Virus record (IMG/VR): IMGVR_UViG_3300021961_000065
Location: 1 to 64,000 of that record
Reading direction: 5' to 3' (one strand)
Origin: a virus
DNA length: 64,000 bases
Below, in pieces: positions 1,129-53,829 of the stretch. How positions within the stretch are numbered: position 1 is the stretch's first letter; the number at the start of each line of letters is the position of its first letter. The notes beneath the pieces are model-generated. The model was given only the letters and a program-made list of their open reading frames with translations. It was not told the DNA's origin and ran no database searches. A program made the translations under genes and the position numbers.

Positions 1129-1141
1129 TGAGGCATTACTA

Positions 1142-4382: not shown

Positions 4383-4394
4383 ACGAGGTATAAT
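4366..4394 (+). promoter_or_regulatory. Consensus sigma-70 promoter inside the end of the phosphoesterase gene
   Basis: TTGACA (4366-4371), a 17-base spacer, then TATAAT (4389-4394): a perfect consensus pair at ideal spacing. The spacer contains the 10-base palindrome CGTTTAAACG, a possible operator. The expected start of transcription, about 4401, falls just past the ATG of the next gene at 4397, so the transcript would mainly serve the genes downstream of it. Copy B has no equivalent at the same place. Confidence 0.72.
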
Positions 4395-4396
4395 AT

Positions 4397-4690: not shown

Positions 4691-4817
4691 CCCACATACT
4701 GGAGAACGTATAGTCTCTAAACTTAGAAATAAAGATAAGTTTGATGAGAACTTTGATCGTATCTTTCGTAAAGACAAGAAAGAAGACAAAGAGAATGATA
4801 AGAAATCTAACGTTTGA
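4677..4817 (+). CDS. Small highly charged protein, copy A only
   Basis: 46 residues starting at the second of two adjacent ATGs (4674, 4677) inside the end of the preceding gene. The N-terminus NPHTGERIVSKL is followed by a Lys/Asp/Glu-rich tail. It overlaps the next gene at 4795 by 23 bases, typical of this compact operon. The corresponding spot in copy B has no such gene, so it is an accessory gene. No function recognised. Confidence 0.5.
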   Translation: MVDTNPHTGERIVSKLRNKDKFDENFDRIFRKDKKEDKENDKKSNV

Positions 4818-4986
4818 AGAGCTTAAAGAAGAGCTCTGCAAGATGGAAGAGACAGAGTTATTAGAATTATTAGACATTGAATCAGAAGAAATTGTAGAAA
4901 AGTTTCAAGATAAGATAGAAGATAATTTTGATAAATTACTAGAAGAAGTTGATAATTTAAAAGAGGAGATAGATTCAGATGAGTAA
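4795..4986 (+). CDS. Small acidic helical protein upstream of ribonucleotide reductase, copy A
   Basis: 63 residues from the ATG at 4795. I chose this over an earlier in-frame ATG at 4741 because the copy B homologue (48732) starts at the matching residue. It is a nearly continuous Glu/Leu-rich helix with coiled-coil character; E-L-L-E-(L/I)-L-D-I-(E/D)-S is shared with copy B. It overlaps the reductase ATG by 8 bases in this copy. It could be a small partner or regulator of the reductase; that is inference from constant linkage. Confidence 0.7.
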   Translation: MIRNLTFEELKEELCKMEETELLELLDIESEEIVEKFQDKIEDNFDKLLEEVDNLKEEIDSDE

Positions 4987-6853: not shown

Positions 6854-6990
6854 TGATCGCTACAATTCAACCAATATGTGGAGTTCAATTAGGCATAGAG
6901 TTTACTGAAGCAGAAGTAAATGGTACTGAAATAAGTTACTGCTTGATTGATTTATTAATAATCAGAATTCAATTAGCGTGGTATAAATAA
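6853..6990 (+). CDS. Small hydrophobic protein between reductase and SLOG genes, copy A only
   Basis: 45 residues. The ATG overlaps the reductase stop (TAATG) and its own stop overlaps the ATG of the SLOG gene (TAATG), so it fits exactly between them and is very likely translated. The sequence reads as a beta-rich half followed by a hydrophobic stretch (CLIDLLIIRIQLAW) long enough for a short membrane or buried helix. In copy B the reductase stop overlaps the SLOG start directly, so this gene is an insertion or loss difference. Function unknown. Confidence 0.65.
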   Translation: MIATIQPICGVQLGIEFTEAEVNGTEISYCLIDLLIIRIQLAWYK

Positions 6991-7364
6991 TGAAAGTATG
7001 TATAATTGGTTCTCGCTCTATCGATAAAGCAGAAAAGGTCTTCCCTATCATAGATCGCTTTATCAAAGAGCATGGCACAGGCACTCTCACCTTCCTCCTA
7101 GGGAGTGCCAAAGGTGTCGATCCATTGTCGAAGAAGTATGCTGAGACTCGAGGAATAGATGTGGTAGAGTTTATACCTTATCATCTAATAGACCCTACAG
7201 CAGACTTTGACAGTAAGTATTTCTTTGTTAGAACTAAACAGATGATAGATAACGCAGATAAAGTTCTAGCTATCTGGGATACTCGTAGTAAAGGTACAGA
7301 GTATGGTATTAAGTATGCCCAGAAAAGAAATCTACCAGTGATGGTAGTTAAAGTCCCTGACTAG
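6990..7364 (+). CDS. SLOG-superfamily nucleotide-binding protein (YspA/DUF2493-like), copy A
   Basis: 124 residues. Starts with beta strand VCIIGSRS, typical of SLOG Rossmann-like domains, followed by the phosphate-binding GSAKGVD loop near residue 40 and a conserved ending KGTEYGIKYAQ. Family members bind nucleotides or nucleotide-like ligands; some are linked to NAD metabolism, others to defence signalling. Its constant place after ribonucleotide reductase in both copies favours a role in nucleotide salvage or sensing, but this is inference. Confidence 0.75.
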   Translation: MKVCIIGSRSIDKAEKVFPIIDRFIKEHGTGTLTFLLGSAKGVDPLSKKYAETRGIDVVEFIPYHLIDPTADFDSKYFFVRTKQMIDNADKVLAIWDTRSKGTEYGIKYAQKRNLPVMVVKVPD

Positions 7365-7376
7365 GGAGACATGTAT

Positions 7377-7407
7377 GGTAGTAGGGGTTCGCCTCTCCTC
7401 TACTACC
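7377..7407 (+). ncRNA. Conserved hairpin before the last early gene, copy A
   Basis: Left arm GGTAGTAGGGG (7377-7387) pairs with CCTCTACTACC (7397-7407), 11 base pairs with one G-U, around a 9-base loop containing GCCTC. The copy B hairpin at 51190-51229 has different arm sequences but keeps perfect pairing and a GCCTC-containing loop, which is covariation. It is not followed by a T run, so it is more likely a structured leader or processing site than a terminator. Confidence 0.6.
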
Positions 7408-7427
7408 TTACTTTACAGGAGACATAT

Positions 7428-7643
7428 ATGTTTGAATATGTTTTAGTTGTATATATCAACAACACACCTATGTATAAGGGCAACTTTGAATCATGTGCCC
7501 ATGCTACAGACTATGTTAATAAATGCTTAATAAATACAATAGAGCCTAAAGACTTTAGGACTGCTTGTCTTTATCAAGATTATATAAACCTACCTGCCAA
7601 TTTCCATCCATTTTATCCTGGTAAGGAATGTTCCAAAGATTAA
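7428..7643 (+). CDS. Last early gene, small conserved protein, copy A
   Basis: 71 residues from the ATG at 7428, chosen because GGAG lies 6 bases upstream and because the copy B homologue starts at the equivalent residue. Shared features: (F/L)EYVLV, GNF(E/K)SCAHA, a C-terminal Pro-rich YP and a Cys near the end. Four Cys are present; the beginning is beta-like. No family recognised. It follows a conserved hairpin and is the last gene before the converging late operon. Confidence 0.75.
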   Translation: MFEYVLVVYINNTPMYKGNFESCAHATDYVNKCLINTIEPKDFRTACLYQDYINLPANFHPFYPGKECSKD

Positions 7644-39346: not shown

Positions 39347-39530
39347 ATTTGTACGTTGGACTTTACTAGCTCAAACAGAAGATGGATTAGATTACGATGT
39401 GTCGAGCCACGTTCCAGTGGGCCTCGACAATCGTCTTAATGATTTTCTAGATGATCTAGAACAATACTGGGATGAGGAGGATCTTGATCCAATAGAATGG
39501 GAAGGAGAAGATGATGCAAGGAGTAAATAG
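39336..39530 (+). CDS. Small acidic early protein
   Basis: 64 residues from ATG 39336, best spaced (6 bases) from GGAG. SSKFVRWTLLAQTEDG beta start and a strongly acidic C-terminal half (DEEDLDPIEWEGEDD). May be a DNA mimic by charge. Overlaps the ArdC-like gene by 20 bases. Confidence 0.6.
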   Translation: MSSKFVRWTLLAQTEDGLDYDVSSHVPVGLDNRLNDFLDDLEQYWDEEDLDPIEWEGEDDARSK

Positions 39531-40407
39531 TAAAAACATAGCTAAGATTATTACTGATCGAATCTTAGAAGAACTTAAGAAAGATCCAGGTCAATGGATT
39601 AAATCTTGGTCTGCTGCTAATCGTCCAGTTAATTTAGTAACAGGTCGTGAATACACAGGCTGTAATTGGCTATGGTTATCTATGATGCAAGGTCACGAAG
39701 GTAACGATACTAATGAATGGTGTACTTATAACCAAGCTAAAGAATTAACAGGTCTTGACTATCCAATTAAGAAAGGTAGTAAAGGGCAACCAGTTATTCT
39801 TTACAAACCACAAAAGATTGCAACACTTGATAAAAAACAAAACAAAATGAAAGACAAAGTTGTTCCTTTAATGCGAGTGTTTCAGGTATTTAATCGTAGT
39901 CATATCATTGATTTACCACCACGAGAAATACCAAATGAAGAAGAAAACAAACTAGAAAAAGTAGAAGTGTTTGTTAATCATCACAAGTTAAACTTAAAGA
40001 ATGGTTTTGATCACGCTTGTTTTATACCAAGTAAAGATGAAATTCACATGCCATACATTACAAACTTTAAGTCAACAGAAGATTACTATGCTACGCTTCT
40101 ACATGAAATGACACACTGGACTGGTCATGAGAAACGACTTGATCGTAAACTTAAAACTAGTTATGGTACAGAAGCTTATGCTTTTGAAGAATTAGTTGCA
40201 GAGTTAGGTGCAGCTATGTTATGTAATCATCTTAATATTCAAGGTAAACTACAACACACAGAGTATATTGCTAGTTGGCTAAAGGTATTACAGAATGATG
40301 AAAAGGCTGTGTTACGTGCATCAGCACAAGCACAAAAAGCATTTGATTATATTGTAGGAGTTACTAATGACAAAACAACAGCAAACGTGGTTAATGCACC
40401 TGCTTGA
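39511..40407 (+). CDS. ArdC-like antirestriction protein
   Basis: 298 residues. N-terminal ArdC-N (DUF1738) single-strand DNA-binding domain with ITDRILEELKKDPGQWIKSW, GREYTGCNWLWLS and PIKKGSKGQPV (to about residue 130). C-terminal zincin-like metallopeptidase domain with HEMTHWTGH (His198, Glu199, His202) and a later FEELVAELGAA with the third ligand. ArdC of plasmids protects entering DNA from restriction. GGAG precedes the two possible ATGs (39511, 39514). Confidence 0.85.
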   Translation: MMQGVNSKNIAKIITDRILEELKKDPGQWIKSWSAANRPVNLVTGREYTGCNWLWLSMMQGHEGNDTNEWCTYNQAKELTGLDYPIKKGSKGQPVILYKPQKIATLDKKQNKMKDKVVPLMRVFQVFNRSHIIDLPPREIPNEEENKLEKVEVFVNHHKLNLKNGFDHACFIPSKDEIHMPYITNFKSTEDYYATLLHEMTHWTGHEKRLDRKLKTSYGTEAYAFEELVAELGAAMLCNHLNIQGKLQHTEYIASWLKVLQNDEKAVLRASAQAQKAFDYIVGVTNDKTTANVVNAPA

Positions 40408-41086: not shown

Positions 41087-41290
41087 ATGAAAGCAGTTCC
41101 TATGAGATGTCTAGCTTGCAATAAAGAGCTCTCAGACTTCGAAGCTACAAGAAAATCTACTCAAACAGGTGAATATATAGACTTATGTAATACGTGTTAT
41201 CGTACTATTAAAGATGTAATATTGCCTCAAGAACGTGAAGACTTACGAGATGTAATAGAAGATGATGATGAAGAAAATGGGGAGTACTAA
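41087..41290 (+). CDS. Small four-Cys zinc protein
   Basis: 67 residues. CLACNKEL at residues 8-15 and CNTCY near 34-38 form a probable zinc site; the C-terminus is strongly acidic (EDDDEENGEY). A second in-frame ATG at 41102 (MRCLACNK) is an alternative start. Similar proteins are common in marine phages. Followed by a bidirectional terminator. Confidence 0.65.
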   Translation: MKAVPMRCLACNKELSDFEATRKSTQTGEYIDLCNTCYRTIKDVILPQEREDLRDVIEDDDEENGEY

Positions 41291-41303
41291 ACTCCCCTTT
41301 GAT
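41279..41303. terminator. Bidirectional terminator between zinc protein and pqqA-like gene
   Basis: GGGGAGT (41279-41285), loop ACTAA, ACTCCCC (41291-41297), then TTT on the plus strand; on the minus strand the stem is followed by ATTTTCTT. Serves both converging genes. Confidence 0.7.
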
Positions 41304-41304
41304 A

Positions 41305-41376
41305 TTACTTGTTACATACGTACATAGTAACTTCAAAACCAAATCTCATTTCTGTTGCTGATGGTTTAGTCCACAT
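41305..41376 (-). CDS. pqqA: PqqA-like peptide (pyrroloquinoline quinone precursor)
   Basis: 23 residues, exactly the length of Klebsiella-type PqqA. Starts MWTKP and ends GFEVTMYVCNK. The conserved E-V-T-x-Y is at residues 15-19: Glu15 and Tyr19 are the two residues that are joined to build PQQ. Arg11-x-Gly13 and the final N-(K/R) also match. GGAG lies 7 bases before the ATG on the minus strand. Read against the operon between two plus-strand genes, with its own terminator. No pqqB-E genes are present, so host enzymes would process it. The match is over nearly all positions, so chance is unlikely. Confidence 0.85.
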   Translation of the reverse strand: MWTKPSATEMRFGFEVTMYVCNK

Positions 41377-41393
41377 AATGTTTCTCCATTTAG

Positions 41394-41422: not shown

Positions 41423-41487
41423 AATATTATACTATAAATACGATATAGTGTAATCAGTACGATCTTGATAAGGAGCTAAGTTAAATC

Positions 41488-42186
41488 ATGAGTGCTTTTT
41501 TACAGCATTTACCCTGTCCTAATTGTGGTAGTAAAGACAATCTAGGTGAGTATGAAGATCATTTCTTCTGCTTTGGATGTCGTTATCACAAACATAAATC
41601 AGACACAAAATCATTAAGAAAACGAATAACTGTTAAACAAGAAACAGTGTATACTCCTGTCCAGGACATGGAGTTAACAGATGAACTACCTTCTGTTGCA
41701 AAACAATGGCTATTGAAGTATGGCATTACAATGGAAGATGCTAAAGAATATAATTTACAATGGAATCCTAATATGAATATGCTAATGTTATTAAAAACAA
41801 AATACTATTGGCAAGCAAGATTATTTGATAAAGCTAAACCAAAGTATTTATCTAAAGGAAAGAAACCTGTACAAATATATGGATATGGTACAGAACGAGT
41901 TACACTATGTGAAGACATAATTTCTGCTATCAAGTTAGCTCGAGTCTCTCCTGAGATGTGTGCTTCTCCTCTTCTAGGAAGCACAATCTCTTTCGAGGCC
42001 CTTCGCTTTTATAAGAAAAAATATAACAGAATCACAATATGGCTTGATCGAGATAAAGCTAAAGAAGCAATAAAGATAAGTAAATTGTTTCAACAATATG
42101 GAACTAAGAGTGATGTTATTATTACTCCTCTTGATCCAAAAGAATACAATAGAACGGAGCTTAGAGAATGGTTGAATTACAGATAA
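41488..42186 (+). CDS. DNA primase (T7 gp4 primase half)
   Basis: 232 residues. Zinc finger Cys10-x2-Cys13 and Cys28-x2-Cys31 for template recognition, then a Toprim domain with LCEDIISAIKLAR (Glu of the active site, here after Cys instead of the usual Thr/Val) and TIWLDRDKA (Asp pair). In T7 primase and helicase are one protein; here they are separate, with the helicase starting 19 bases before this gene ends. AAGGAG site upstream. Confidence 0.85.
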   Translation: MSAFLQHLPCPNCGSKDNLGEYEDHFFCFGCRYHKHKSDTKSLRKRITVKQETVYTPVQDMELTDELPSVAKQWLLKYGITMEDAKEYNLQWNPNMNMLMLLKTKYYWQARLFDKAKPKYLSKGKKPVQIYGYGTERVTLCEDIISAIKLARVSPEMCASPLLGSTISFEALRFYKKKYNRITIWLDRDKAKEAIKISKLFQQYGTKSDVIITPLDPKEYNRTELREWLNYR

Positions 42187-43415
42187 TAAGATTATTCTGT
42201 GTAAATAAAGATGAGTATAGTCGTTACTATAAATACGTTGATACGACTTACATGAAAAACAATTATCCTTTGTTACATAAATTGTTTCAAATGGTATTTA
42301 GTTTCTATGATAAATATGATAAAGATAACATTACACCTAATGAACTCTTTACAATGTATCAAGCTAACTATATTACAGATGAATCAGAACAAAAAGAAAT
42401 AAAAGAACTTATTGATACCATCTTTGATTCTGAAGAAAACACAGCTATACGAGATTTATTACAGACACATAAAAGACGTGCTCTTGCAGGTAACCTTGCT
42501 AAAGTAGCTTTAGATGTAGAAGAAGGTAAAGTAGAAGCTGAAAAACTACAGGAACTTTTTAGTGACTTTGAATTACAAGCAGTAAATGAACAAGAAATTA
42601 ATGGCTGCACAGATGATTTATCAGACTTATTACATCAACAATTTGATGAAGTGGGGCTTCGTTGGAGACTTAACTTCTTAAATAAATCATTAGGTAGTCT
42701 ACGTCAAGGAGACTTTGGCTTTATCTTTGCTAGACCTGAAACAGGTAAAACTACTTTCTTAGCTTCAGAAGTATCTAATATGATAAAATATACAGACAAA
42801 GAAATACATTGGTTTCATAACGAAGAGGGTGCACGTAAAGTGCAAACTCGAGTCTATCAAGCAGTGCTTGGAGTTACAACACAACAACTAAAGAAACACG
42901 AAGAACGTTGTAAACAAAAGTATTATGAAGAAACATATAAAGATGGACAGAAAAGAATCTTTATACATGATGTTAATGAATCTTCACACATCAAAGTAAT
43001 TGAAGGAATCTTAAAACAAAAGAACCCCGGGCTTATAATACTTGATCAAATTGATAAGATAAAAGGATTTAAAGCAGATCGTAATGATCTTGAATTAAAA
43101 GTATTATATCAATGGGCTAGGGAACTTTGTAAAAAGTATGCTCCAGTTATTGCCGTCTCCCAAGCTAGTGGTGAGGCAGAGGGTGTACCATTTCTAACAA
43201 TGGATATGGTAGACTCATCCAAGACAGCCAAACAAGGAGAGGCTGATTGGATTCTAGGTATAGGTAAGGATAAAGATAATACCTCTCGTATAAGGTATCT
43301 AAATATCACTAAAAATAAGCTCCTTGGTGATAGCGATTCCTTACCTGCACTTAGACATGGTAGTGCTAGAGTACTAATTAAACCTGAGGTAGCTCAATAT
43401 GAAGACATCGTTTAG
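42168..43415 (+). CDS. Replicative helicase (DnaB/T7 gp4 helicase type)
   Basis: 415 residues. N-terminal helical part (to about 165), then RecA-like ring ATPase: Walker A ARPETGKTT (residues 188-196), Walker B PGLIILDQID, and VIAVSQASGEA followed by SSKTAKQGEADWILGIG and ITKNKLL (arginine finger area). Unwinds DNA ahead of the split polymerase and interacts with primase. The Walker A has Arg-Pro-Glu in place of the usual Gly-rich start, as in some phage helicases. Confidence 0.88.
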   Translation: MVELQIIRLFCVNKDEYSRYYKYVDTTYMKNNYPLLHKLFQMVFSFYDKYDKDNITPNELFTMYQANYITDESEQKEIKELIDTIFDSEENTAIRDLLQTHKRRALAGNLAKVALDVEEGKVEAEKLQELFSDFELQAVNEQEINGCTDDLSDLLHQQFDEVGLRWRLNFLNKSLGSLRQGDFGFIFARPETGKTTFLASEVSNMIKYTDKEIHWFHNEEGARKVQTRVYQAVLGVTTQQLKKHEERCKQKYYEETYKDGQKRIFIHDVNESSHIKVIEGILKQKNPGLIILDQIDKIKGFKADRNDLELKVLYQWARELCKKYAPVIAVSQASGEAEGVPFLTMDMVDSSKTAKQGEADWILGIGKDKDNTSRIRYLNITKNKLLGDSDSLPALRHGSARVLIKPEVAQYEDIV

Positions 43416-43560: not shown

Positions 43561-43789
43561 TTATGATGCAACAAATGATATAACTAATCCTACTATGAAA
43601 AAGATATATTCATATATGCAAAGAGGTAAAACATATACTCGTAAAGATATAGCAAAAGACCTGTCCCTACCTGTTCCTACAGTGACAGCTAGGGTTTCAG
43701 ATCTTCTGATGAAACATTATATAACAGAGACCCCTACTGTATGGGATGAAAAATCTAAAAGATATATAGGAGGCTTCCAAAGATTATGA
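43529..43789 (+). CDS. Winged-helix DNA-binding protein
   Basis: 86 residues (72 or so if started at the ATG at 43541). Helix-turn-helix GKTYTRKDIAKDLSLPVPTVTARVSDLL, short of that run, with recognition helix PTVTARVSDLL and a wing around TPTVWDEKSKRYIGG. Could regulate transcription of the operon or help replication initiation. Placed between zinc ribbon and polymerase, ATGA overlap to the latter. Confidence 0.75.
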   Translation: MRRLMITIHRDYDATNDITNPTMKKIYSYMQRGKTYTRKDIAKDLSLPVPTVTARVSDLLMKHYITETPTVWDEKSKRYIGGFQRL

Positions 43790-44940
43790 ATGTATTAACA
43801 ATAGATGTAGAAACTACCATATCAAATAAAGGTAATCCTTTTGATACAACTAATAAATTAGTATATGTAGGATGTAAAGATAACGAGCAACCTACTAAAG
43901 TATTTAGTATTGAATACAATCAAGAACCTTATAAAGATAAACTTAATAAGATTCAAGCTATGATAAATGATGTTGATTGGTTAGTAGGTTTTAATATTAA
44001 ATTTGATTTATCTTGGTTAAAAAGATATGGAATTAAATTTGATCACAAAAGAATATGGGATTGTCAGTTAGCTCACTTTATTATGACAGGACAAGAAAAA
44101 CCATATCCTAGTTTAAATGGAGTCTGTGAACATCACGGACTTGAACAAAAGATAGATATTATTAAAGAGCAGTATTGGTCTAATGGCATTGACACTCCAA
44201 ATATACCAGAAGAATTATTACAAGACTATCTTAAAAAAGATGTAGACTTAACAAGAGAAGTTTATAAAAAACAAATGTATGTATTATATAAAGATACTAA
44301 TCAAGCTAATCTTATACAATTACATTTTAGAGATTTAGCAGTGCTTCAAGAAATGGAATACAATGGGATGTTATATGATCAACAAAGGAGTAAAATACTT
44401 GGTGATGAATTGGATGAACAAATTGGGAAACTGGATAGACGACTGTACGATTTACATGGATTGGATTCTTTTAACCCTTCTAGCGTGGATCACCTTAATG
44501 CTTTCCTTTATGGTGGGAGGCTTAGCTTCCGTCGTAAAGTACCTGATGGTGTTTACAAGACGGGGGCTCGTAAAGGTGAACCAAAGGAAAAATGGGAAAC
44601 GTATGAAGTAGAATTACCACAACGTTGTAAACCTATTGCAGGATCTGAACTAAAAAAAGATGGATTATATTCAGTAGATGATAGTACAATTAAAAGATTA
44701 AAAGGAGCAAAAGATATTCGTGATTTAATACTAACAAGAGCTACATTACAGAAACGACTTACAGCATACTATAGAGGCTTAGATGAACTTATCACAGAAA
44801 ATAATTGGAAACAAAACAAACTACATGGAGTCCTCAACCAATGTGTTGCTAGAACAGGACGACTCTCAAGTAGTAAACCCAACTTACAAAACTTTGATTC
44901 AGAAATTAAAGGCTTGCTTTACAGTAGATATGAGTCATAG
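43786..44940 (+). CDS. Family A DNA polymerase, N-terminal part (3'-5' exonuclease to thumb), copy B
   Basis: 384 residues, complete. Exonuclease motif I DVETT (Asp7, Glu9), motif II GFNIKFD (Asn70, Asp74), motif III Y148-x3-Asp152 in YLKKDVDL. The C-terminal TGRLSSSKPNLQN precedes the end by about 20 residues. As in copy A the chain stops at a turn just before motif A (EIKGLLYSRYES). The proofreading site looks intact. Homologue of 1-937. Confidence 0.92.
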   Translation: MNVLTIDVETTISNKGNPFDTTNKLVYVGCKDNEQPTKVFSIEYNQEPYKDKLNKIQAMINDVDWLVGFNIKFDLSWLKRYGIKFDHKRIWDCQLAHFIMTGQEKPYPSLNGVCEHHGLEQKIDIIKEQYWSNGIDTPNIPEELLQDYLKKDVDLTREVYKKQMYVLYKDTNQANLIQLHFRDLAVLQEMEYNGMLYDQQRSKILGDELDEQIGKLDRRLYDLHGLDSFNPSSVDHLNAFLYGGRLSFRRKVPDGVYKTGARKGEPKEKWETYEVELPQRCKPIAGSELKKDGLYSVDDSTIKRLKGAKDIRDLILTRATLQKRLTAYYRGLDELITENNWKQNKLHGVLNQCVARTGRLSSSKPNLQNFDSEIKGLLYSRYES

Positions 44941-45187
44941 TAAAAAAGTAACAGTAGCTATTACAGGCATTGATGATTATTTTCGTAATAATTGTCCTCG
45001 CTCTGAAAGATTAAAAGATCTTTATGAACATATAGAACGCAAAGGATTAAATGTAGCCTGGGCAGAATATGTATCTAAAGATATAGAAGATCTTATTATG
45101 ATAGAAGGACCTGAATTTTTACTTAAACATATGTCTGTTAGTGCTAAAGATAAACTAATAAAGTACATGAAAAAGAGGTATCTTTAA
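44930..45187 (+). CDS. Small protein inserted between the two polymerase halves, copy B
   Basis: 85 residues from ATG 44930, overlapping the upstream polymerase gene by 11 bases; a much longer in-frame start at 44783 would sit inside that gene and is unlikely. Helical, basic: SHSKKVTVAITGIDDYF, then LKDLYEHIERKGLN and a conserved end. The last about 30 residues match the copy A insert loosely; the rest does not. Its stop overlaps the ATG of the catalytic half (TAATG). Confidence 0.72.
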   Translation: MSHSKKVTVAITGIDDYFRNNCPRSERLKDLYEHIERKGLNVAWAEYVSKDIEDLIMIEGPEFLLKHMSVSAKDKLIKYMKKRYL

Positions 45188-45912
45188 TGTTATTACAAGC
45201 AGATGCAAAACAACTAGAGTGGGTAGGTGCTGCTTATTTATCTCAAGATCCTGTAGCTATTAATGAAATATGGGGATCAGTAGATATGCACAGTGATAAT
45301 CAAAAACGATTTGGTCTACCTAGTAGATTGATTGCTAAGACTTTCGTGTTTAGATTAATCTATGGAGGCAGTGCTTATAGTTATGCACATGATCCTAACT
45401 TTATGTCAATAGGTAGTGAAAAGTATTGGCAAACTATTATAGATAACTTTTATGATAAATATAAAAGATTAGGTGAATGGCATAAAGAAATCTATGAAGA
45501 AGCAGTTCGTGAACGTAGATTAGTAATGCCAACAAATAGAGTCTATAACTTTGAATCTGAAGTTAAAGGCAATAAAGTATATTATCCACGTACTAAGATA
45601 TTAAACTATCCTGTACAAGGATTAGGCGCAGATCTTATGGCGATTGCTCGTGTGTCGTTAATGACTAAACTACGTGAGATGAAAGACATAGTTATGGTTA
45701 ATACAGTACATGATTCAATAATACTTGATTTTAATTCAAAAGTATGGGATAATATACATATAGTCAATTTAGTTGACAAATGTTTCAATGAAGTTCCAGA
45801 TAACTTTCACAAATTATTTGGGAAAGAGTTTAACTTACCTATGAGAGTCGAGTGTCAAGTAGGACCCACATGGGGATCAATGGAGATAATAAATGCAGAT
45901 AAACGTAATTGA
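45187..45912 (+). CDS. Family A DNA polymerase, C-terminal catalytic part, copy B
   Basis: 241 residues, same length as copy A and about 70 percent identical by eye. Motif A DAKQLEW (Asp6), motif B with Lys51, Phe55 (Pol I 762) and Tyr59, motif C VHDS (Asp176, Ser177). The first 47 bases from the preceding TAATG are identical to copy A at 1140-1186, well above the general level. Coupled to the insert gene by TAATG and overlaps SSB by 20 bases. Confidence 0.92.
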   Translation: MLLQADAKQLEWVGAAYLSQDPVAINEIWGSVDMHSDNQKRFGLPSRLIAKTFVFRLIYGGSAYSYAHDPNFMSIGSEKYWQTIIDNFYDKYKRLGEWHKEIYEEAVRERRLVMPTNRVYNFESEVKGNKVYYPRTKILNYPVQGLGADLMAIARVSLMTKLREMKDIVMVNTVHDSIILDFNSKVWDNIHIVNLVDKCFNEVPDNFHKLFGKEFNLPMRVECQVGPTWGSMEIINADKRN

Positions 45913-46429
45913 TGTAGGACAACCAACCACTCATGCTAGTGCTAATGGTAGATCATATGAAATGATTGAAGTTGCATACAAGAATGAGAACGGGCAAATT
46001 CAACAAAAGAAGTTAATGTCATTCAAAAACCCTGACGTTTACAAACAAGCTTTAACATGGGAGAAAGGTGCAACAGTCCATATACAAGCTGAGAAAAACG
46101 AAAAAGGTTATTGGGAATGGATTGGCTTAGGAGATGTACCAGTAGCTAGTGCATCACCATCATCACAACCTAGTAAATCTAATAGCAATACTAGAGTTAC
46201 TGGTTCTAACTATGAAACCAAAGAAGAACGTGCAGCACGACAAGTAATGATTGTTCGGCAGTCATCTATCTCTTCAGCAGTCAGTGCTTTAACAGCAAGT
46301 AATAATGTTCCTTCAAGCAACGACATTCTATCTCTTGCAAAAGAGTTTGAAGATTATGTTATGGGTAATACTACTGTTAACAAAGCTGATGGTGGAATAG
46401 ATAACTTTGAGGATGATGTTCCTTTTTAG
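45893..46429 (+). CDS. Single-stranded DNA-binding protein, copy B
   Basis: 178 residues. OB-like N-terminal domain (INVIDVGQPTTHASANGRSY), a Ser/Pro/Asn linker near residues 85-100, a helical KEERAARQVMIVRQSSISSA segment and an acidic tail ending EDDVPF. The tail is nearly identical in form to the bacterial SSB tip. Unlike copy A, the stop does not overlap the exonuclease start; a hairpin lies between. Confidence 0.75.
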   Translation: MQINVIDVGQPTTHASANGRSYEMIEVAYKNENGQIQQKKLMSFKNPDVYKQALTWEKGATVHIQAEKNEKGYWEWIGLGDVPVASASPSSQPSKSNSNTRVTGSNYETKEERAARQVMIVRQSSISSAVSALTASNNVPSSNDILSLAKEFEDYVMGNTTVNKADGGIDNFEDDVPF

Positions 46430-46440
46430 GGACATCTTCT
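46415..46440 (+). terminator. Hairpin at the SSB-exonuclease border, copy B
   Basis: GATGTTCC (46415-46422), loop TTTTTA, GGGACATC (46429-46436), 8 base pairs with one G-U, then TTCTTTC. It overlaps the SSB stop codon. Could partly stop transcription so that SSB exceeds exonuclease. Copy A lacks it; there the genes overlap. Confidence 0.4.
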
Positions 46441-46446
46441 TTCATT

Positions 46447-47142
46447 ATGTTAGCTCTAATTGATATGGATATAGTATGCTATCGTTGTGCTGCTTCAGCA
46501 GAAAACAATGATCTAGGAATAGCTATATACAGACAGAATGAATTACTTGATCAGATATTAGAGATGACAGGAGCTACAGCATATAAAGCTTACCTATCAG
46601 GTCAAAAGAACTTTCGTAAACAAATCTACCCAGAATATAAAGCTAATAGAAAGCAACCTAAACCTATACATCTGGATAACTGTAGAGACTATGCGATGCA
46701 GGAACAAAATGCAGAACTCGCACCTATAGGATTAGAAGCAGATGATGCTCTAGGAATAAATCAGACTAAAGACACAGTAATTTGTAGTTTAGATAAGGAT
46801 CTATTACAGATCCCTGGACAACATTACTCATGGGAAATTAGTGGTAAAGGATGGAAAAAACCACACATATTCAGAGAAATTACTGAAATAGAAGGACTTA
46901 AACTATTCTATGAACAATGCCTTAAAGGAGATCGAACAGACAATATACGAGGCATAGAAAAGATTGGAGATAAAAAAGCAAACTTAATATTAAAACCATA
47001 CACAACAGAACTAGAAATGTTTAATGTAGTCAGAGATATGTATGGTAATGATGAAGAGTTTTTAATGAACGCTAATTGTTTATGGATATTACGAGATGAA
47101 AACGAAACGTTTACAGAACGCTTTGCCAAACTTCAAAAGTAA
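46447..47142 (+). CDS. 5'-3' exonuclease / flap nuclease, copy B
   Basis: 231 residues. DMD, IYPEYKANR, EADDALG, SLDKDLLQIPG and GDRTDNIRGIEKIGDKKA in the same order as copy A. Primer removal and DNA degradation in related phages. Its end overlaps the endonuclease gene by 47 bases. Confidence 0.9.
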   Translation: MLALIDMDIVCYRCAASAENNDLGIAIYRQNELLDQILEMTGATAYKAYLSGQKNFRKQIYPEYKANRKQPKPIHLDNCRDYAMQEQNAELAPIGLEADDALGINQTKDTVICSLDKDLLQIPGQHYSWEISGKGWKKPHIFREITEIEGLKLFYEQCLKGDRTDNIRGIEKIGDKKANLILKPYTTELEMFNVVRDMYGNDEEFLMNANCLWILRDENETFTERFAKLQK

Positions 47143-47506
47143 ATTTGAACGTAGTATTTGGGAACAGTTAATAAAAGAATACAAGACTTGTCAGTATGAA
47201 TGTGACTCGTACAAATACGAACAACCTGTTATTATAAGAACCTACACTCCTGACTTTAAGACAGGTAAACATAAAGTATACTTAGAAACAAAAGGTAAAT
47301 TAGATTTAGAGACTCGTAAGAAAATGATATGGTTTAAAGAATGTAATCCTAATGTACGGATTATATTTTTATTTCAAAATGCTGATGTTAAACTACGTAA
47401 AGGTAGTAAAACATCTTATAGTGAATGGGCAACAAAGAATAACTTTGAATGGTTAGATGCTAGAAAGGATTGGATAAGTGCATATAAAGAAATGCTCAAA
47501 GAATAA
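47096..47506 (+). CDS. Endonuclease I / Holliday junction resolvase (T7 gp3 type), copy B
   Basis: 136 residues with an 8-residue longer N-terminus than copy A. FKSKFERSIWEQL, YTPDFKTG and YLETKGKLD (catalytic Asp, Glu, Lys), RKKMIWFKECNP and the end EWLDARKDWISAYKE. Overlaps on both sides with neighbours, as in copy A. Confidence 0.88.
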   Translation: MKTKRLQNALPNFKSKFERSIWEQLIKEYKTCQYECDSYKYEQPVIIRTYTPDFKTGKHKVYLETKGKLDLETRKKMIWFKECNPNVRIIFLFQNADVKLRKGSKTSYSEWATKNNFEWLDARKDWISAYKEMLKE

Positions 47507-47675
47507 AGATGGTTCATTTAAATTTGAAGTTGAAGTGAACAAAGATGAAGCTGCCTATTTGTTTAATTATGCTCTTAATGATTTAATAAAAGCAGGGTTT
47601 ATGCACGTAGATTTAATTACTGAAGCTGAATATGAGCTTAATTTATTTAGAGAAGATGGAGGAGATCTATCATGA
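47478..47675 (+). CDS. Small conserved protein with GTG start, copy B
   Basis: 65 residues; same length and same GTG start inside the endonuclease gene as copy A (3403). KNKDGSFKFEVEVNKDEAAYL and the end LNLFREDGGDLS match the copy A protein. The conserved unusual start argues for coupling to endonuclease translation. Function unknown. Confidence 0.75.
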   Translation: MHIKKCSKNKDGSFKFEVEVNKDEAAYLFNYALNDLIKAGFMHVDLITEAEYELNLFREDGGDLS

Positions 47676-48433
47676 AACATTTAGTGATACCTGATTGTCA
47701 AGTTAAACCTAAAGTAGATATATCTTATTTATATTGTATTGGTAACTATATAGTGGCTAAACAACCTGATGTTATTGTATGTATAGGTGACTTTGCTGAT
47801 ATGCCTAGCTTATCAAGTTATGATACAAATAAGAAATCATTTGAAGGACGTACATACAAAGCAGATGTTAAATCTGTTCACACAGGAATGGAACTACTTT
47901 TAGGTCCTTTATGGGAGTATCAAGATAGACAACGTAAAGATAAAAAGAAGATGTACAGACCTCGTATGATATTGACGTTAGGTAATCATGAAGATAGAAT
48001 AGATAGAGCGATTAACACAGATCGTAAACTTGAAGATTTAATTAGTATAGGAGATCTAAACTATGAACACTATGGTTGGGAGGTGTATCCTTTTCTTGAC
48101 GTGGTTGTGGTCGATGGTGTTGCTTACTCACATTATTTTGCAAGTGGTGTCATGGGAAGACCAGTTACATCAGCACAAGCTCTCATTAATAAAAAGCACA
48201 TGTCATGCTTTGCAGGACACCAACAAGGACGACAAATTGCCTATGCAAGAAAAGCAGATGGCACTGAAATTACTTGTATTATAGCAGGTAGTTGTTATCT
48301 ACATAATGAAGACTATCTATCTTCACAAGGTAATAATCACTGGAGAGGGATCTATATGTTACATGAAGTAGATAATGGGGCTTTCGATGAGATGGCAGTT
48401 AGTTTAAGATATTTAATGAAGGAGTATAAGTAA
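47672..48433 (+). CDS. Calcineurin-like metallophosphoesterase, copy B
   Basis: 253 residues, eight shorter at the C-terminus than copy A. PDCQVKP, CIGDFADM, LGNHEDR, YSHYFASGVMG and GHQQGRQ carry the metal site. ATGA overlap from the previous gene; its stop overlaps the next ATG. The promoter found in copy A at this gene end is absent. Confidence 0.85.
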   Translation: MKHLVIPDCQVKPKVDISYLYCIGNYIVAKQPDVIVCIGDFADMPSLSSYDTNKKSFEGRTYKADVKSVHTGMELLLGPLWEYQDRQRKDKKKMYRPRMILTLGNHEDRIDRAINTDRKLEDLISIGDLNYEHYGWEVYPFLDVVVVDGVAYSHYFASGVMGRPVTSAQALINKKHMSCFAGHQQGRQIAYARKADGTEITCIIAGSCYLHNEDYLSSQGNNHWRGIYMLHEVDNGAFDEMAVSLRYLMKEYK

Positions 48434-48735
48434 TGCACCCATTAGAAACAATATATAAAAAAGCAGTAGAACAAGTTACAAGTGGAAAAGGTAATGAAAG
48501 ACATGGTGATGGTGATGACTTTATGTTACAGCCTTGGGTTAACATTACTAGACTACATGGACGTGGTTTTCTAACAGGACAGGCACAGAAGAAACTAGAA
48601 GAGGCAGTCCGTAATCGAGTCGGTCATAACTACGACTGGTATGAGCGTGAGTTACTTGGTGCTATCAATTACTTAGCTATGGCATTACTTGCTGAATATG
48701 AGATTGGTAAAAGTACTACGGAGGAACTACATTGA
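48433..48735 (+). CDS. Conserved helical protein, possibly a MazG/DUF5664-like nucleotide hydrolase, copy B
   Basis: 100 residues. HPLETIYKKAVEQ, GKGNERHGDG, GFLTGQAQKKLEEA and ELLGAINYLAMALL match copy A. All helical. The call to a nucleotide hydrolase rests on general pattern and on linkage with ribonucleotide reductase; not certain. Start overlaps the phosphoesterase stop. Confidence 0.6.
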   Translation: MHPLETIYKKAVEQVTSGKGNERHGDGDDFMLQPWVNITRLHGRGFLTGQAQKKLEEAVRNRVGHNYDWYERELLGAINYLAMALLAEYEIGKSTTEELH

Positions 48736-48914
48736 TTACTATTGAAGAATTAGCTGAACAGCTAGAAACATTTAGTGAGGTAGACTTACTAGAGATACTA
48801 GACATTGATTCAAAAGAATTAATTGCTAGGTTTATAGATAAGATAGAAGATAAGTATGAAGATCTTGTATCTGAATTTACTATTGATTTAAATGAGGAGA
48901 ATGAGGATGATTAA
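48732..48914 (+). CDS. Small acidic helical protein upstream of ribonucleotide reductase, copy B
   Basis: 60 residues, apparently with a TTG start, 7 bases after GGAGG. IEELAEQLETFSEVDLLEIL parallels copy A at 4795. Acidic, coiled-coil-like. The end overlaps the reductase start by 8 bases. Linked with the reductase in both copies. Confidence 0.68.
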   Translation: MITIEELAEQLETFSEVDLLEILDIDSKELIARFIDKIEDKYEDLVSEFTIDLNEENEDD

Positions 48915-50784
48915 TTTACCATCGGTATATCAAGACGTTATTGCTATGTCTAGATATTCTAGATATATTCCTGAGAAAAAACGTAGAGAAACTTGGGATG
49001 AAACTGTAGATAGATTGGTAAACTATTTAGAAAGTAAAGCACCAGAATTAAAGAAAGACTTAAAAGAAGTTAGAGAAGCTGTTCTTAACTTAGAAGTAAT
49101 GCCTTCTATGCGTTTATTAATGACAGCAGGTGAAGCTGTAGAGCGAGATAATATTGCTGCTTATAATTGCTCTTACCTTGCTATTAATAATAAACGTGCT
49201 TTTAGTGAGGCTCTTTATATCCTAATGAATGGTACTGGTGTTGGTTTTAGTTGTGAACGACAAGAGATTAATAAACTACCTGCAGTACCTACTGAAATGT
49301 CAGAAGTCAAAGACATTATTGTCGTTGGAGATAGTAAACTTGGATGGGCGAAAGCCTTCAAGAAATTGTTATCCAGTCTTTGGGAAGGAGATATACCACA
49401 GATTGACTACTCACATATTCGACCATTAGGAGCTAGACTAAAGACATTTGGAGGACGAGCTAGTGGTCCAGGTCCCTTAGAAAAACTATTTAAATTTGTT
49501 ATTAACAAGTTTGTAGAGGCTAAAGGACGTAAACTAAACTCTATCGAAGTACATGATATTATGTGTATGATTGGTGACATTGTTGTTGTAGGTGGTGTAA
49601 GACGATCAGCTTTAATTTCTTTAAGTAATCTAACAGACAGACGTATGAGAGATGCTAAAACAGGTGCTTGGTGGGAAAAAGATGAACATCGTAGACTTGC
49701 TAATAACTCAGTAGCTTACACAGAAACACCTGATAGTGAGACTTTTATGGAAGAATGGCTATCTTTAGTTAAATCTAAATCTGGAGAACGAGGTATCTTT
49801 AATCGTGTTGCTGCTCAGAAACAAGCTAACAAATGGGGAAGACGTGATCCTACTTTAGATTATGGTACTAATCCTTGTAGTGAAATTATTCTACGTGATA
49901 AACAATTCTGTAACTTAACTGAAGTTATTATTCGTGCTAATGATACAGAAGAGTCTTTAACTAGAAAAGTCAGACTAGCTACGTTGTTAGGCACTATACA
50001 ATCTACACTTACTAACTTTCAATTTTTATCTCATGATTGGATTAAAAATACAGAAGAAGAAAGATTACTTGGAGTATCATTAACAGGGATTATGGATTGT
50101 AAACTAACTTCAAACCCTGATTCTAAAATGTTAGAAAGGTTAAGAGATGTTGCAAGAAAAACAAATGAAACATACGCTAAAAAACTGGACATTCCTGTGT
50201 CTACGTCAATTACTTGTGTTAAGCCTAGCGGCACTGTGTCTCAGCTTGTTGACTCTGCTAGTGGTATACATACACGACACAATGACTACTACATTAGAAG
50301 AATACGTATGTCTAAAGCAGACCCTATATATGACTTCTTAAAAAACAAAGGTATTGAAGTAGAAGATGATTTGTTTGATAAAAGTAAAATAACGGCTGTA
50401 TTTAGTTTCCCTATGAAATCACCTAAAGGTGCTATACTTAGAGATGGTATGACAGCTATAGAGCAATTAGAAAACTGGCTTATTTATCAACGTCATTGGT
50501 GTGAACATAAACCTTCTGTAACTATATCTGTTAAAGATGATGAATGGATTCAAGTAGGAGCCTGGGTATGGAAACATTTTAATGAGATTAGTGGAGTTTC
50601 TTTCTTACCTCATGATGGTGGATCATATCAACAAGCTCCTTATGAAGACTGCACTAAAGAACAGTATGAAGAGTTGTTAAGTCGTACTCCTAAAACCATA
50701 GATTGGTTAGACTTTATTGAAGAAGACGATAATACAATAGGACAACAAACATTAGCCTGTACGGCAGGAAGCTGTGAGATATAA
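48907..50784 (+). CDS. Adenosylcobalamin-dependent (class II) ribonucleotide reductase, monomeric type, copy B
   Basis: 625 residues from ATG 48907, which matches the copy A start and is 6 bases after AGGAG; two earlier in-frame ATGs (48892, 48901) are less likely. Active-site Cys in NCSYL, NPCSEI (with Glu) and FCNLTE, and a C-terminal CTAGSC redox pair. About 80 percent identical to copy A by eye. The stop overlaps the SLOG gene ATG directly. Confidence 0.93.
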   Translation: MINLPSVYQDVIAMSRYSRYIPEKKRRETWDETVDRLVNYLESKAPELKKDLKEVREAVLNLEVMPSMRLLMTAGEAVERDNIAAYNCSYLAINNKRAFSEALYILMNGTGVGFSCERQEINKLPAVPTEMSEVKDIIVVGDSKLGWAKAFKKLLSSLWEGDIPQIDYSHIRPLGARLKTFGGRASGPGPLEKLFKFVINKFVEAKGRKLNSIEVHDIMCMIGDIVVVGGVRRSALISLSNLTDRRMRDAKTGAWWEKDEHRRLANNSVAYTETPDSETFMEEWLSLVKSKSGERGIFNRVAAQKQANKWGRRDPTLDYGTNPCSEIILRDKQFCNLTEVIIRANDTEESLTRKVRLATLLGTIQSTLTNFQFLSHDWIKNTEEERLLGVSLTGIMDCKLTSNPDSKMLERLRDVARKTNETYAKKLDIPVSTSITCVKPSGTVSQLVDSASGIHTRHNDYYIRRIRMSKADPIYDFLKNKGIEVEDDLFDKSKITAVFSFPMKSPKGAILRDGMTAIEQLENWLIYQRHWCEHKPSVTISVKDDEWIQVGAWVWKHFNEISGVSFLPHDGGSYQQAPYEDCTKEQYEELLSRTPKTIDWLDFIEEDDNTIGQQTLACTAGSCEI

Positions 50785-51155
50785 TGAGAGTTTGTATAAT
50801 AGGTAGTCGTAGTTTAGATAAGGCAGAGATAGTTCTTCCTATTATAGATAAGTTCTTTAAAGAACATACAGTTAAACCTCAAGTTATTATATCAGGAGGA
50901 GCTAAAGGAGTTGATCACTTTAGTCAGTTGTATGCAGAACATAATGGACTTGACTTTATACAAATATTGCCGTATCATTTATTGGATACCACCACTGAGT
51001 TTAACAGTAAATACTTTTTTATTCGTACCAAGCAGATGATAAGTAACGCAGATAAGGTACTTGCAATATGGGATACAAAAAGTAAAGGTACTGAGTATGG
51101 TATTAAACTTGCTCAGAAGTTAGATATACCAGTGATGGTTGTTAAAGTACCATAG
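50784..51155 (+). CDS. SLOG-superfamily nucleotide-binding protein (YspA/DUF2493-like), copy B
   Basis: 123 residues. VCIIGSRS start strand, SGGAKGVD phosphate loop, and KGTEYGIKLAQ near the end. In this copy the loop is the canonical GGAKG; copy A has GSAKG. Directly coupled to the reductase (TAATG). Role in nucleotide pool sensing is inferred. Confidence 0.78.
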   Translation: MRVCIIGSRSLDKAEIVLPIIDKFFKEHTVKPQVIISGGAKGVDHFSQLYAEHNGLDFIQILPYHLLDTTTEFNSKYFFIRTKQMISNADKVLAIWDTKSKGTEYGIKLAQKLDIPVMVVKVP

Positions 51156-51179
51156 GTTTCCTTCCTTTTTGTCCTATGG
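51150..51179 (+). terminator. Weak hairpin after SLOG gene, copy B
   Basis: CCATAGG (51150-51156) pairs with CCTATGG (51173-51179) around a T/C-rich 16-base loop with five T in a row; flanking bases extend it by two or three pairs. It begins inside the last codons of the upstream gene. Possible terminator or mRNA 3' stabiliser. Confidence 0.35.
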
Positions 51180-51189
51180 TATGCTATGG

Positions 51190-51229
51190 TGCTGTAGTAG
51201 TTAGGTTGCCTCGCCTAGCTATTACAGCA
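51190..51229 (+). ncRNA. Conserved hairpin before the last early gene, copy B
   Basis: TGCTGTAGTAGTTAGG (51190-51205) pairs over 16 positions with 51214-51229, two G-U pairs, loop TTGCCTCG. The same position in copy A has a hairpin with other arm bases and a loop that also holds GCCTC. Base changes are compensated on the opposite arm, so selection on RNA structure is likely. Confidence 0.65.
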
Positions 51230-51249
51230 TTATTTTATATGGAGGTTAT

Positions 51250-51462
51250 GTGCTTGAATACGTATTAGTACTCTATCTTAATGATGAGCCTAACTATATA
51301 GGTAACTTTAAGTCATGTGCTCATGCTAATAGATACATACAAAACTGTTACTTTAGTACAGTTATGCCTAGTGACTACTATGTATCATGCCAACATCAAG
51401 ACTATTTATTTTTACCTGAGGGTTTTGTAGCCTCTTATCCTGAGGATTGTTCCACAGATTAA
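51250..51462 (+). CDS. Last early gene, small conserved protein, copy B
   Basis: 70 residues with a GTG start 4 bases after GGAGG; an out-of-frame ATG overlaps it. LEYVLVLYLNDEPNYIGNFKSCAHA matches copy A in most places, and a C-terminal YPEDCSTD. Cys are partly conserved. Function unknown. Follows the conserved hairpin. Confidence 0.72.
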   Translation: MLEYVLVLYLNDEPNYIGNFKSCAHANRYIQNCYFSTVMPSDYYVSCQHQDYLFLPEGFVASYPEDCSTD

Positions 51463-51492
51463 TAGGAGGAAAATCTATATCCTTCCATTCAA

Positions 51493-53829
51493 TCATAGTA
51501 AGCTATCTAAATAATTTATAGTTTCACTAGGTAATTTTGTTTTCCATTTATTACCATTAGCTTCTATTAATTTATCTACATTACCTAAACCATAATTATA
51601 AGCAGCTAAAGCTTTTTCTTTATCGCCTCGATAGTAACTAACTAATTTATCAAGATAGTTTTGTACCCATTGAGCTTGTTCCATTACAGTAGAAGTTTCA
51701 AGATCTATTGAAGGTAATCCAAATCCAGGATCTTTTGCTGTACTAGGTAGTATTTGGAATTGTCCTAAAGCACCTTTACTAGATTTAATAAGTTTACCTG
51801 CTTTATCTCGATGTCCTTCTTTAGATTCTACAGGACCTAACTCATTAACTACAAAGTCTAAATCAAGTTCTTTAGCTTTTGTTTGAGTTATAGGAGGTTC
51901 TTGTTCTACAGGAGCAGTTGTAACTCCTTCTGTAGGTGTCGTCTCTACAGGTTGTTCATTAACTATAGGAACAGTTTCTTCTTGTACTTGTTGTTGTACA
52001 GCTTTAAGACTATCTAAAATACCTTTATTAGATTCAACAGCCATTACTTTACCATAGGTTTTAATACTGTTATTTAATGGTACTACATACTTATTATTAA
52101 AATCATTTTTAGCACCAGGTACAATAACTAAACCTTGACCATCTGTTTTAATAGTAAGCCCCAAAGTAGCAGCTTCTGCTTCCATTTGTTTATAAATTGT
52201 AGGAACAGCGTTTTCAATACTTTGAGCTAATGCACTTTGACGAGTTGCATCTAATGATCTAACATCATCACTTGTTACAAAGTTTGATGCTATACCTGCC
52301 ATAATTTCAGTATATAATTTATATTTATCAGCAGGACTATCCATTTTATTATTATAGGCTTCTTCAATACGATCAAATAAAGAATTAGCTACTTGAGTAC
52401 CTTTAGTATCTCCTGATAATTTAGTTAAAGATATTTGAACTCCTTCTTGTACCATTGATTTATTTTTATTAAGAGGACTTATATTTAACATTTCATCTAA
52501 TGATGATATTCCTGTATTGCCTTGTTTTTCAAACATTCTATTAATATTATCAATAAAACCAACGTATTCAGCACTATTAAATTGAATACCAAACGTATTA
52601 CCTACAGTAGCTAGTTTTTCTAACATACCTGCTACTTCTGTAGTAGCTCCAAATTTATTTCTAAAATCTATTTGTATTTGATTTTCAGTAATAGATTTTT
52701 GATTTTCAATATAAGTTTTAATATCACTAAGATTTTTATAGTTTTCAATCGTAGTTAAAGAATCATTTAATCTATCTTTATAACGAGTAAGCCGTTCTTT
52801 AACTTCAGGATTATTTAATCCATAAGGAGAAAATGTTAATTCAGCATCCATAATACGATTTTGAATATATGTTTTAGCATTAGCTTTAGCTGTTGCTAAT
52901 TCATTAGGAGACAATTCTTGTCTTGTTACAAGTTGTCCAGTTTGAGGATCTACATTTGTAATAGTAAATATTTTTTCTATTTCATTTACATCACTATATT
53001 GTCTACTTAATGAAATTTTATCAAAAGTACCATCTTTAATAGCTCTACGAAGTTGTAATTTATCAACATCTTCACCACGTTTAGCTTCTCTAGATAAAGC
53101 ATCATCTCCAAATTTAGCTTGTCTTAAATATTGATTAAAAGCATCCATCGCATTAGAATCTAATTGACCATTAGGTCCTCTAAATATTGGATTATTTAAA
53201 TTAAGATTATTATCTTTAGCTTCTTTATAAATCTCTTTAAACATCCATTCATCCATACCTGCTTTAGAGGTAGCCATTTTGTCGTCAAGTTTAATACGAT
53301 TTTCAATACCATTTAAATCAAGTACAGTTTTACCATGAGAAAGAATTTCTGATTTAAGATAAGGATATTGTGTTACTTTATCTTTAAGTATTTGTTTTAC
53401 TCGTTGATCAAATTCAAAACCAGTAATACGTTCTTGTGACTTTGCTTTGTCTAAGAATTGTTTTTGTGTATCAATATCTGATAAAACATTATTAATAGAC
53501 TGGTTAACTTCTTCAGCAGAACCTGATTTTTGACTTGGTAGTTTAGCTAATTCAGCTTCAGACTTTTGTAAACCCTGTTGTTGTTCTAGTATTTTAGAAG
53601 GACTAGCAGATTCATAAGCATTAATTTCATCGTCTATTTCACCAGTAATTCCTTGAAGAGCATTGAGTTCAGCAACATCTTTATAAATAGCTGTAGATAA
53701 TTTAGCTGCATTAGTAAACGCATTAATGTTTGTAGCAGCACCATAGCCTGCTGATTTATCAATTACTGGTTGTTTAACAAAAGGAGCAACATTTCTTTCT
53801 CCTATTTCATCTGTAAATCTATTTGCCAT
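51493..53829 (-). CDS. Internal virion protein with C-terminal lytic transglycosylase domain, copy B
   Basis: 778 residues. The first about 600 are helical, matching the copy A protein at 8346-10208. After a Pro/Thr/Glu linker (residues about 610-650) comes an SLT-type transglycosylase domain: ELGPVES with the catalytic Glu, GALGQFQILPSTA, and KALAAYNYG. It opens the cell wall at DNA entry. Copy A instead has an unrelated lysozyme-like domain here. Confidence 0.85.
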   Translation of the reverse strand: MANRFTDEIGERNVAPFVKQPVIDKSAGYGAATNINAFTNAAKLSTAIYKDVAELNALQGITGEIDDEINAYESASPSKILEQQQGLQKSEAELAKLPSQKSGSAEEVNQSINNVLSDIDTQKQFLDKAKSQERITGFEFDQRVKQILKDKVTQYPYLKSEILSHGKTVLDLNGIENRIKLDDKMATSKAGMDEWMFKEIYKEAKDNNLNLNNPIFRGPNGQLDSNAMDAFNQYLRQAKFGDDALSREAKRGEDVDKLQLRRAIKDGTFDKISLSRQYSDVNEIEKIFTITNVDPQTGQLVTRQELSPNELATAKANAKTYIQNRIMDAELTFSPYGLNNPEVKERLTRYKDRLNDSLTTIENYKNLSDIKTYIENQKSITENQIQIDFRNKFGATTEVAGMLEKLATVGNTFGIQFNSAEYVGFIDNINRMFEKQGNTGISSLDEMLNISPLNKNKSMVQEGVQISLTKLSGDTKGTQVANSLFDRIEEAYNNKMDSPADKYKLYTEIMAGIASNFVTSDDVRSLDATRQSALAQSIENAVPTIYKQMEAEAATLGLTIKTDGQGLVIVPGAKNDFNNKYVVPLNNSIKTYGKVMAVESNKGILDSLKAVQQQVQEETVPIVNEQPVETTPTEGVTTAPVEQEPPITQTKAKELDLDFVVNELGPVESKEGHRDKAGKLIKSSKGALGQFQILPSTAKDPGFGLPSIDLETSTVMEQAQWVQNYLDKLVSYYRGDKEKALAAYNYGLGNVDKLIEANGNKWKTKLPSETINYLDSLL

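Follow-up and report, generated by a model that had tools for sequence, protein, structure and literature searches.

A 23-codon pqqA gene with a host-like upstream element in a virus related to phages of methylotrophic OM43 bacteria

The pqqA locus and its genome context

The stretch of viral DNA discussed here, hereafter the window, is 64,000 nucleotides long and belongs to a virus record of 74,813 bases. The terminase of the record shares 78% identity with its counterpart in Methylophilales phage MEP401, and the helicase of the window shares 53% with the MEP402 helicase; both Methylophilales phages infect marine OM43 methylotrophs. Judged by these similarities, the window is part of a virus record near MEP401/402, and the presence of genes for terminase, head and tail proteins identifies the surroundings of pqqA as a genuine phage genome. 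The pqqA frame is arranged head-to-head with the phage primase gene and tail-to-tail with a small zinc-ribbon-like ORF (Table 1).

Table 1 Features of the pqqA region, with positions counted in the window
Feature	Position	Strand	Basis
Zinc-ribbon-like small ORF, 67 aa, convergent with pqqA	41087..41290	+	Weak zinc-finger matches only; weak phrog_10364 match
Terminator-like hairpin, bidirectional, between pqqA and the opposing ORF	41279..41297	both	Perfect 7-bp stem
pqqA, 23 codons, peptide MWTKPSATEMRFGFEVTMYVCNK	41305..41376	-	PF08042 and TIGR02107, both above curated cut-offs
Ribosome binding site GGAG, 7 nt 5′ of the pqqA ATG	41384..41387	-	Sequence
-10 box TATAAT of the predicted pqqA promoter	41426..41431	-	ATTACA-17-TATAAT, 10/12 consensus matches
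Proximal operator-like site ATCAAGATCGTACTGAT	41453..41469	-	10 consensus positions matched
Distal operator-like palindrome CTCATGATTTAACTTAG	41476..41492	-	16.6 bits, host-trained matrix
DNA primase gene, divergent from pqqA	41488..42186	+	phrog_47, E=1.5e-20
DnaB-type helicase	42168..43415	+	PF03796, E=2.7e-13

The frame begins with ATG, ends with TAA and translates to the peptide given in Table 1. This peptide scores 43.3 bits (E=3e-11) against the Pfam PqqA family PF08042, for which the cut-off is 21.1, and 44.7 bits against the NCBIfam equivalog TIGR02107, for which it is 20. Both reacting residues, Glu15 and Tyr19, are present in the E-x-x-x-Y spacing, and 60 Markov-shuffled 64-kb windows yielded no PqqA-like frame. 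On these sequence grounds, the 23-residue peptide is a genuine PqqA. A sequence search of solved structures with the peptide gave no match, and PHROGs has no family for it.

A first-pass annotation of this DNA had proposed the PqqA identity, the two reacting residues, a ribosome site 7 bases ahead of the ATG and a position antisense to the early operon. All of these were borne out; pqqA also has a promoter-like region of its own, and the other viral pqqA copies carry an AGGA/GGAG-like site a few nucleotides upstream. The same annotation had credited the gene with its own terminator. A terminator-like stem does exist (two such hairpins were observed against 0.2 expected from shuffles), but it is not pqqA's own, since it is terminator-like on both strands and also faces the opposing gene. 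This hairpin 3′ of pqqA is kept in the closest relatives of the window (L374-L377), and a related one is found in L380/L381. Neither the window nor the rest of the 74.8-kb record was found to carry pqqB-E, as the annotation had stated for the phage, and the co-location with these genes that is usual for PqqA, but optional, is not seen in this record. Their lack does not exclude membership of the PqqA family because orphan copies in Methylophilaceae are likewise without pqqB-E (PMC4109929).

In the 74.8-kb record, two related phages have probably been joined into a chimera, since a MEP401-like replication module (DNA polymerase, exonuclease, and RNR) is present as two colinear but diverged copies, and there are also two large tail genes. 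The module copies, at window positions 1-7640 and 44000-51500, have about 50-78% amino acid identity. The second copy has a 99.99% match, along 7.2 kb of compared sequence, in L374, an independent contig of 43.6 kb. The chimeric appearance lends some weight to the idea that pqqA is a chance reading frame or stems from host contamination of the viral assembly. However, pqqA keeps its position next to the phage primase in a set of independent contigs (L374-L381), and it also occurs in complete genomes of cultured phages. Together with the shuffled windows, these observations refute the idea, to which we give practically no credence.

Distribution and conservation of phage pqqA

A tblastn search of 50,697 phage records with the window peptide found PqqA at 87-96% identity in Venkman, MEP401, MEP402, P19250A, MEP301, and one spring-water virus (MW202481), and at 73% identity in four Melnitz myophages. 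The remaining matches, over three different PqqA queries, were a mislabelled Acinetobacter phage contig and one marginal match (E=5). PqqA queries from Klebsiella and Methylorubrum gained no further phage in these records. The matches labelled Acinetobacter phage MD-2021a were rejected as phage evidence; the contig (L008, CAKLQF020000010.1) looks like bacterial DNA because it carries pqqABCDE and other chromosomal genes. Venkman and MEP301 represent two distinct groups, Melnitz is a myophage, and MEP401/402 belong to the Zobellviridae (PMC10580990), such that the cultured phages with pqqA (Venkman, MEP301, MEP401/402, P19250A, and Melnitz) span several unrelated lineages. None of those examined has the gene annotated as pqqA; the site is either empty or occupied by a hypothetical ORF on the opposite strand.

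In IMG/VR, searches with DNA patterns, which provide a lower bound on prevalence, identified PqqA peptides in at least 120 contigs, and all of the matches listed are open over their 23-25 codons and follow a purine-rich ribosome site. Since the first pattern forces residues 11-19, a second scan was run with residues 1-10 only. Among the matches listed from that scan, R[FY]GFE[VI]T[ML]Y with Glu15 and Tyr19 intact was present in 119/119 peptides, and E-[VI]-T-x-Y is kept in all 199 viral PqqA peptides that were located. The first-pass annotation had named conservation of E-V-T-x-Y in homologous phage loci as a check on its proposal, and these counts provide that conservation. Among the matches listed, the immediate neighbors of viral pqqA form 106 different pairs. 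About 200 viral pqqA loci were inspected for pqqB-E, and none carries them.

At the nucleotide level, third codon positions of viral pqqA are scrambled while the peptide is fixed, with a dN/dS of about 0.1, a value to which residues 11-19 contribute as positions fixed by the search pattern. Trp2 and Pro5, both outside the pattern-fixed residues, are invariant. With that dependence on the pattern, the ratio is what purifying selection on an auxiliary gene would give.

Within the window's own lineage, PqqA is present in 31 of 43 contigs and in 8 of the 9 that are at least 36 kb long; the 12 contigs that lack it are mostly fragments, and one of them is 36 kb. The closest relatives keep pqqA, its promoter region and its place beside the primase, with an identical peptide at the same site in L374-L376 and a near-identical one in L377. 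A second viral group (L286-L326), with some members of up to 340 kb (L293 and L324), carries another PqqA type, MWTKPTYxKIRLGFEVTMYFK.., and the stretches analysed are likewise without pqqB-E.

The upstream element of phage and host pqqA

PqqA of Methylophilaceae is of the type ..ATEMRFGFEVTMYV[MC]N[KR], and the viral peptides are of the same type. Moreover, the commonest viral PqqA, MWTTPAATEMRFGFEVTMYVMNK, is found unchanged in an OM43 single-cell genome (L213) and in many Methylotenera. Methylophilaceae have 3-12 pqqA copies and usually one pqqBCDE set (PMC4109929), and stand-alone pqqA is therefore normal in this family. In a methylotrophic PQQ producer with five pqqA copies, the copies differ in expression level (PMC9851590).

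Motif discovery upstream of phage pqqA returned T[AC]ATG[AG]TTTT[CA]..[TG]A. The phage element, CT[AC]ATGA-NNN-TCAT[TG]AG, is palindromic and has a fixed spacing from the -10 box; the best case, in L031, is the perfect palindrome CTAATGA-TTT-TCATTAG. Because the reversed motif resembles a ribosome site followed by a start codon, the loci were split by the direction of the upstream gene. Where this neighbor is co-directional, 63 of 78 nonredundant phage upstreams contain the motif, and its log-likelihood is 462 vs 58-70 for shuffled sequences. The concern that the motif is an artefact of the ribosome site and start codon of a divergent gene is real where the neighbor is divergent, the window included. 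For the group as a whole it was rejected, on the basis of the co-directional loci and of a test trained on host sequences. In that test, a scoring matrix was trained on host pqqA promoters only, and its threshold of 8 bits was exceeded in 58-61% of phage pqqA upstreams, compared with about 1% of the regions ahead of other genes in these phage loci and about 1% in shuffles.

On the host side, T[CA]ATGA-NNN-TCAT[TG]AG or close forms precede pqqA in 40 of 47 cases. The -10 box lies 61-62 bases from the start of the site in hosts; in phages the distance is 38 bases in most cases and 60-61 in a minority. Hosts also have a second, weaker site at +23 (22 cases), which corresponds to 38 from the -10 box. 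In host genomes the strict palindrome is rare, with 1-4 copies in each of eight genomes, and pqq genes are what it most often precedes: of 16 genomic sites inspected, six lie ahead of pqqA at a distance of 111-142 bp and one lies ahead of pqqB. It was not found before xoxF/mxaF, where the best matches (10-12 of 14 positions) are at background level, and a role as a general methanol regulon site was rejected on that ground. In Methylophaga (L173 and L180), pqqA is preceded by the variant CTMAGGA-NNN-TCCTKAG, in which both half-sites are changed together. In MEP402, the operator is weak or absent. Host pqqA operators in Methylophilaceae were recorded in L129-L246, with L331, L335, L339, and L341 as examples. 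In two Methylophilaceae genomes (L340 and L342), the palindrome lies between divergent genes for small secreted-looking proteins, which are possibly further members of the regulon.

In the window, the -10 box follows the start of the distal site by 61 bp, and the layout is that of hosts, including the +23 proximal site. The latter is 23 bp from the distal site and overlaps the -35 position, with a chance of 0.0024 for such a match at a fixed place. Since the distal site shares bases with the start codon of the divergent primase gene, it is weak as a single instance. The spacing between GGAG and ATG of the primase gene is unusually long, 12 nt, and is filled by the operator-like palindrome (window 41476-41503); the same protein might therefore also affect primase expression. 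Taken with the group-wide comparison, the window pqqA appears to share its control site with the pqqA copies of the host. The position of the site, centred near -42, suggests that the putative regulator is an activator; it may instead be a repressor.

The likeness of both gene and operator to those of the host, together with a palindrome that is better conserved than the DNA around it, is also what would be expected of an ancient host fragment carried without benefit, or one kept for its operator (e.g., for titrating a host regulator) with an incidental peptide. The peptide itself argues against such a passenger: it is fixed, at the low dN/dS given above with residues 11-19 set by the pattern, despite scrambled third codon positions, and Trp2 and Pro5 are invariant beyond the reach of that pattern. 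In addition, the gene occurs in more than 100 different neighbor settings, and a ribosome site is retained throughout. We consider a mere passenger very unlikely.

Proposed role during infection and relation to known systems

With PqqD as its helper, PqqE links the conserved Glu of PqqA to the conserved Tyr (PMC5715301), and a Gluconobacter cell-free extract converted added PqqA to PQQ, as cited in PMC9851590 (its reference 26). What is seen directly in the genomes, i.e., the identity of PqqA, its conservation, its orphan state, its host specificity and the upstream element shared with hosts, leads us to propose that phage pqqA is a stand-alone auxiliary gene that would supply PqqA to the host enzymes and so sustain PQQ-dependent methanol dehydrogenase; we put the probability of this reading at roughly three in four. 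From the sequences we infer the following course of transcription, regulation, processing and benefit. During infection, the promoter that belongs to phage pqqA would drive its transcription; the RNA polymerase would probably be that of the host, acting with the regulator of chromosomal pqqA. Host PqqD would hand the phage peptide to PqqE, which would join Glu15 to Tyr19, and host PqqB, PqqC, and proteases would finish PQQ. The supply of cofactor for methanol dehydrogenase (XoxF/MxaF) would in this way be maintained after host gene expression declines, allowing electron and carbon flow to continue. Because one PqqA is consumed per PQQ, the phage peptide would keep up the cofactor supply, and the fact that PqqA alone in the pathway must be made continually would explain why phages carry pqqA without the enzymes. 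The virus thus probably keeps host methanol oxidation running while it replicates. In support of supply, the tblastn matches in phage records point to Methylophilales/Methylophilaceae hosts. Against it, the substrate may not be limiting, since Methylophilaceae already have several pqqA copies. The 12 contigs of the lineage that lack PqqA, the weak or absent operator in MEP402 and the overlap of the window's distal site with the primase start codon also count against this reading.

The first-pass annotation had left the choice between supply and a decoy. A PqqA made on its own would bind PqqD/PqqE regardless of whether its processing is finished, and the phage has no pathway enzymes; the peptide could accordingly occupy these proteins, lower host PQQ and starve methanol oxidation. 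However, loss of the reacting Glu and Tyr was seen in none of the 119 peptides of the unbiased sample, and a decoy acting through such loss was rejected. Moreover, the commonest viral peptide is identical to the PqqA of a host, the phage gene bears the host's own promoter element, and hosts already make PqqA from their 3-12 copies (PMC4109929). The unbroken Glu15/Tyr19 pair and the host-type promoter therefore disfavor inhibition, which we regard as quite unlikely, and of the two earlier proposals it is supply to the host enzymes that is favored. The modified peptide or PQQ might also serve another end, such as signaling or superinfection exclusion; a peptide family annotated as PqqA is co-expressed with defence systems in ocean data (PMC11118758). 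In this case, the annotated phage records tie PqqA strictly to phages of Methylophilales, which points to methylotrophy instead, and the sequence does not depart from a standard precursor, making such an end highly improbable.

A PqqA in a phage of methylotrophs has been reported before. The Lake Baikal Methylophilaceae phage contig VP_266 (2020) encodes PqqA and methanol dehydrogenase, and PqqA was proposed there to raise PQQ for the dehydrogenase (PMC7678222). VP_266 represents a T4-like population with a phage methanol dehydrogenase, whereas the window is MEP401-like and none was seen in it; beyond that report, pqqA is found here across unrelated lineages and with a host-type operator. The orphan pqqA genes of Methylophilaceae (PMC4109929; PMC9851590) resemble the window copy in their 23-residue type, their lack of linkage to pqqBCDE and the same palindromic upstream element, but they are chromosomal, while the window copy is phage-borne and antisense to the early operon. 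In reservoir-sediment viruses, pqqA, pqqD, and pqqE are listed as viral auxiliary genes; in the parts of that paper available to us, they are framed in terms of phosphate solubilisation, with no link to methylotroph phages or regulation (PMC13188868). The publications on MEP401/402, MEP301, and Melnitz do not mention phage pqqA, and no report of an operator before pqqA was found in the open-access literature. Three points seem to be new: how widely pqqA is spread among phages, its having been missed in isolates, and the operator shared with hosts. With slightly more confidence than doubt, we regard a host-regulated 23-codon pqqA as a near-universal convergent trait of Methylophilales phages that has been overlooked because it falls below annotation limits.

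Cyanophage psbA, which encodes the D1 protein, is the familiar case of a phage gene that renews, during infection, a part of the host's energy metabolism that is quickly exhausted, and it is carried by unrelated phages that infect a single host group. By analogy, phage pqqA would act alike in infection and be its methylotroph counterpart, with the phage plugging into the cofactor-supply regulon of its host; PsbA is a protein subunit, whereas PqqA is a consumed cofactor precursor peptide. In coastal and fresh waters, the Methylophilales (OM43 and LD28) have an important part in methanol oxidation, and an unannotated pqqA in several unrelated lineages would imply that control of C1 oxidation by viruses has gone unnoticed. 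If so, the 23-residue peptide would be a marker for methylotroph phages, and the shared operator would make the regulator of PQQ supply directly searchable. The cultured phage-host pairs (Venkman, MEP401/402, Melnitz, MEP301, and P19250A) make the function testable now.

Two further observations concern the neighborhood of pqqA in the window. DNA polymerase A (window 43786-45912) is split between two ORFs that flank a small one, a possible intron; the same arrangement has been reported for MEP401/402. Upstream of the pqqA region (window 39511-40407) lies an ArdC-like anti-restriction N-terminal domain together with a zincin metallopeptidase, which we assign provisionally to the ORF at that position.
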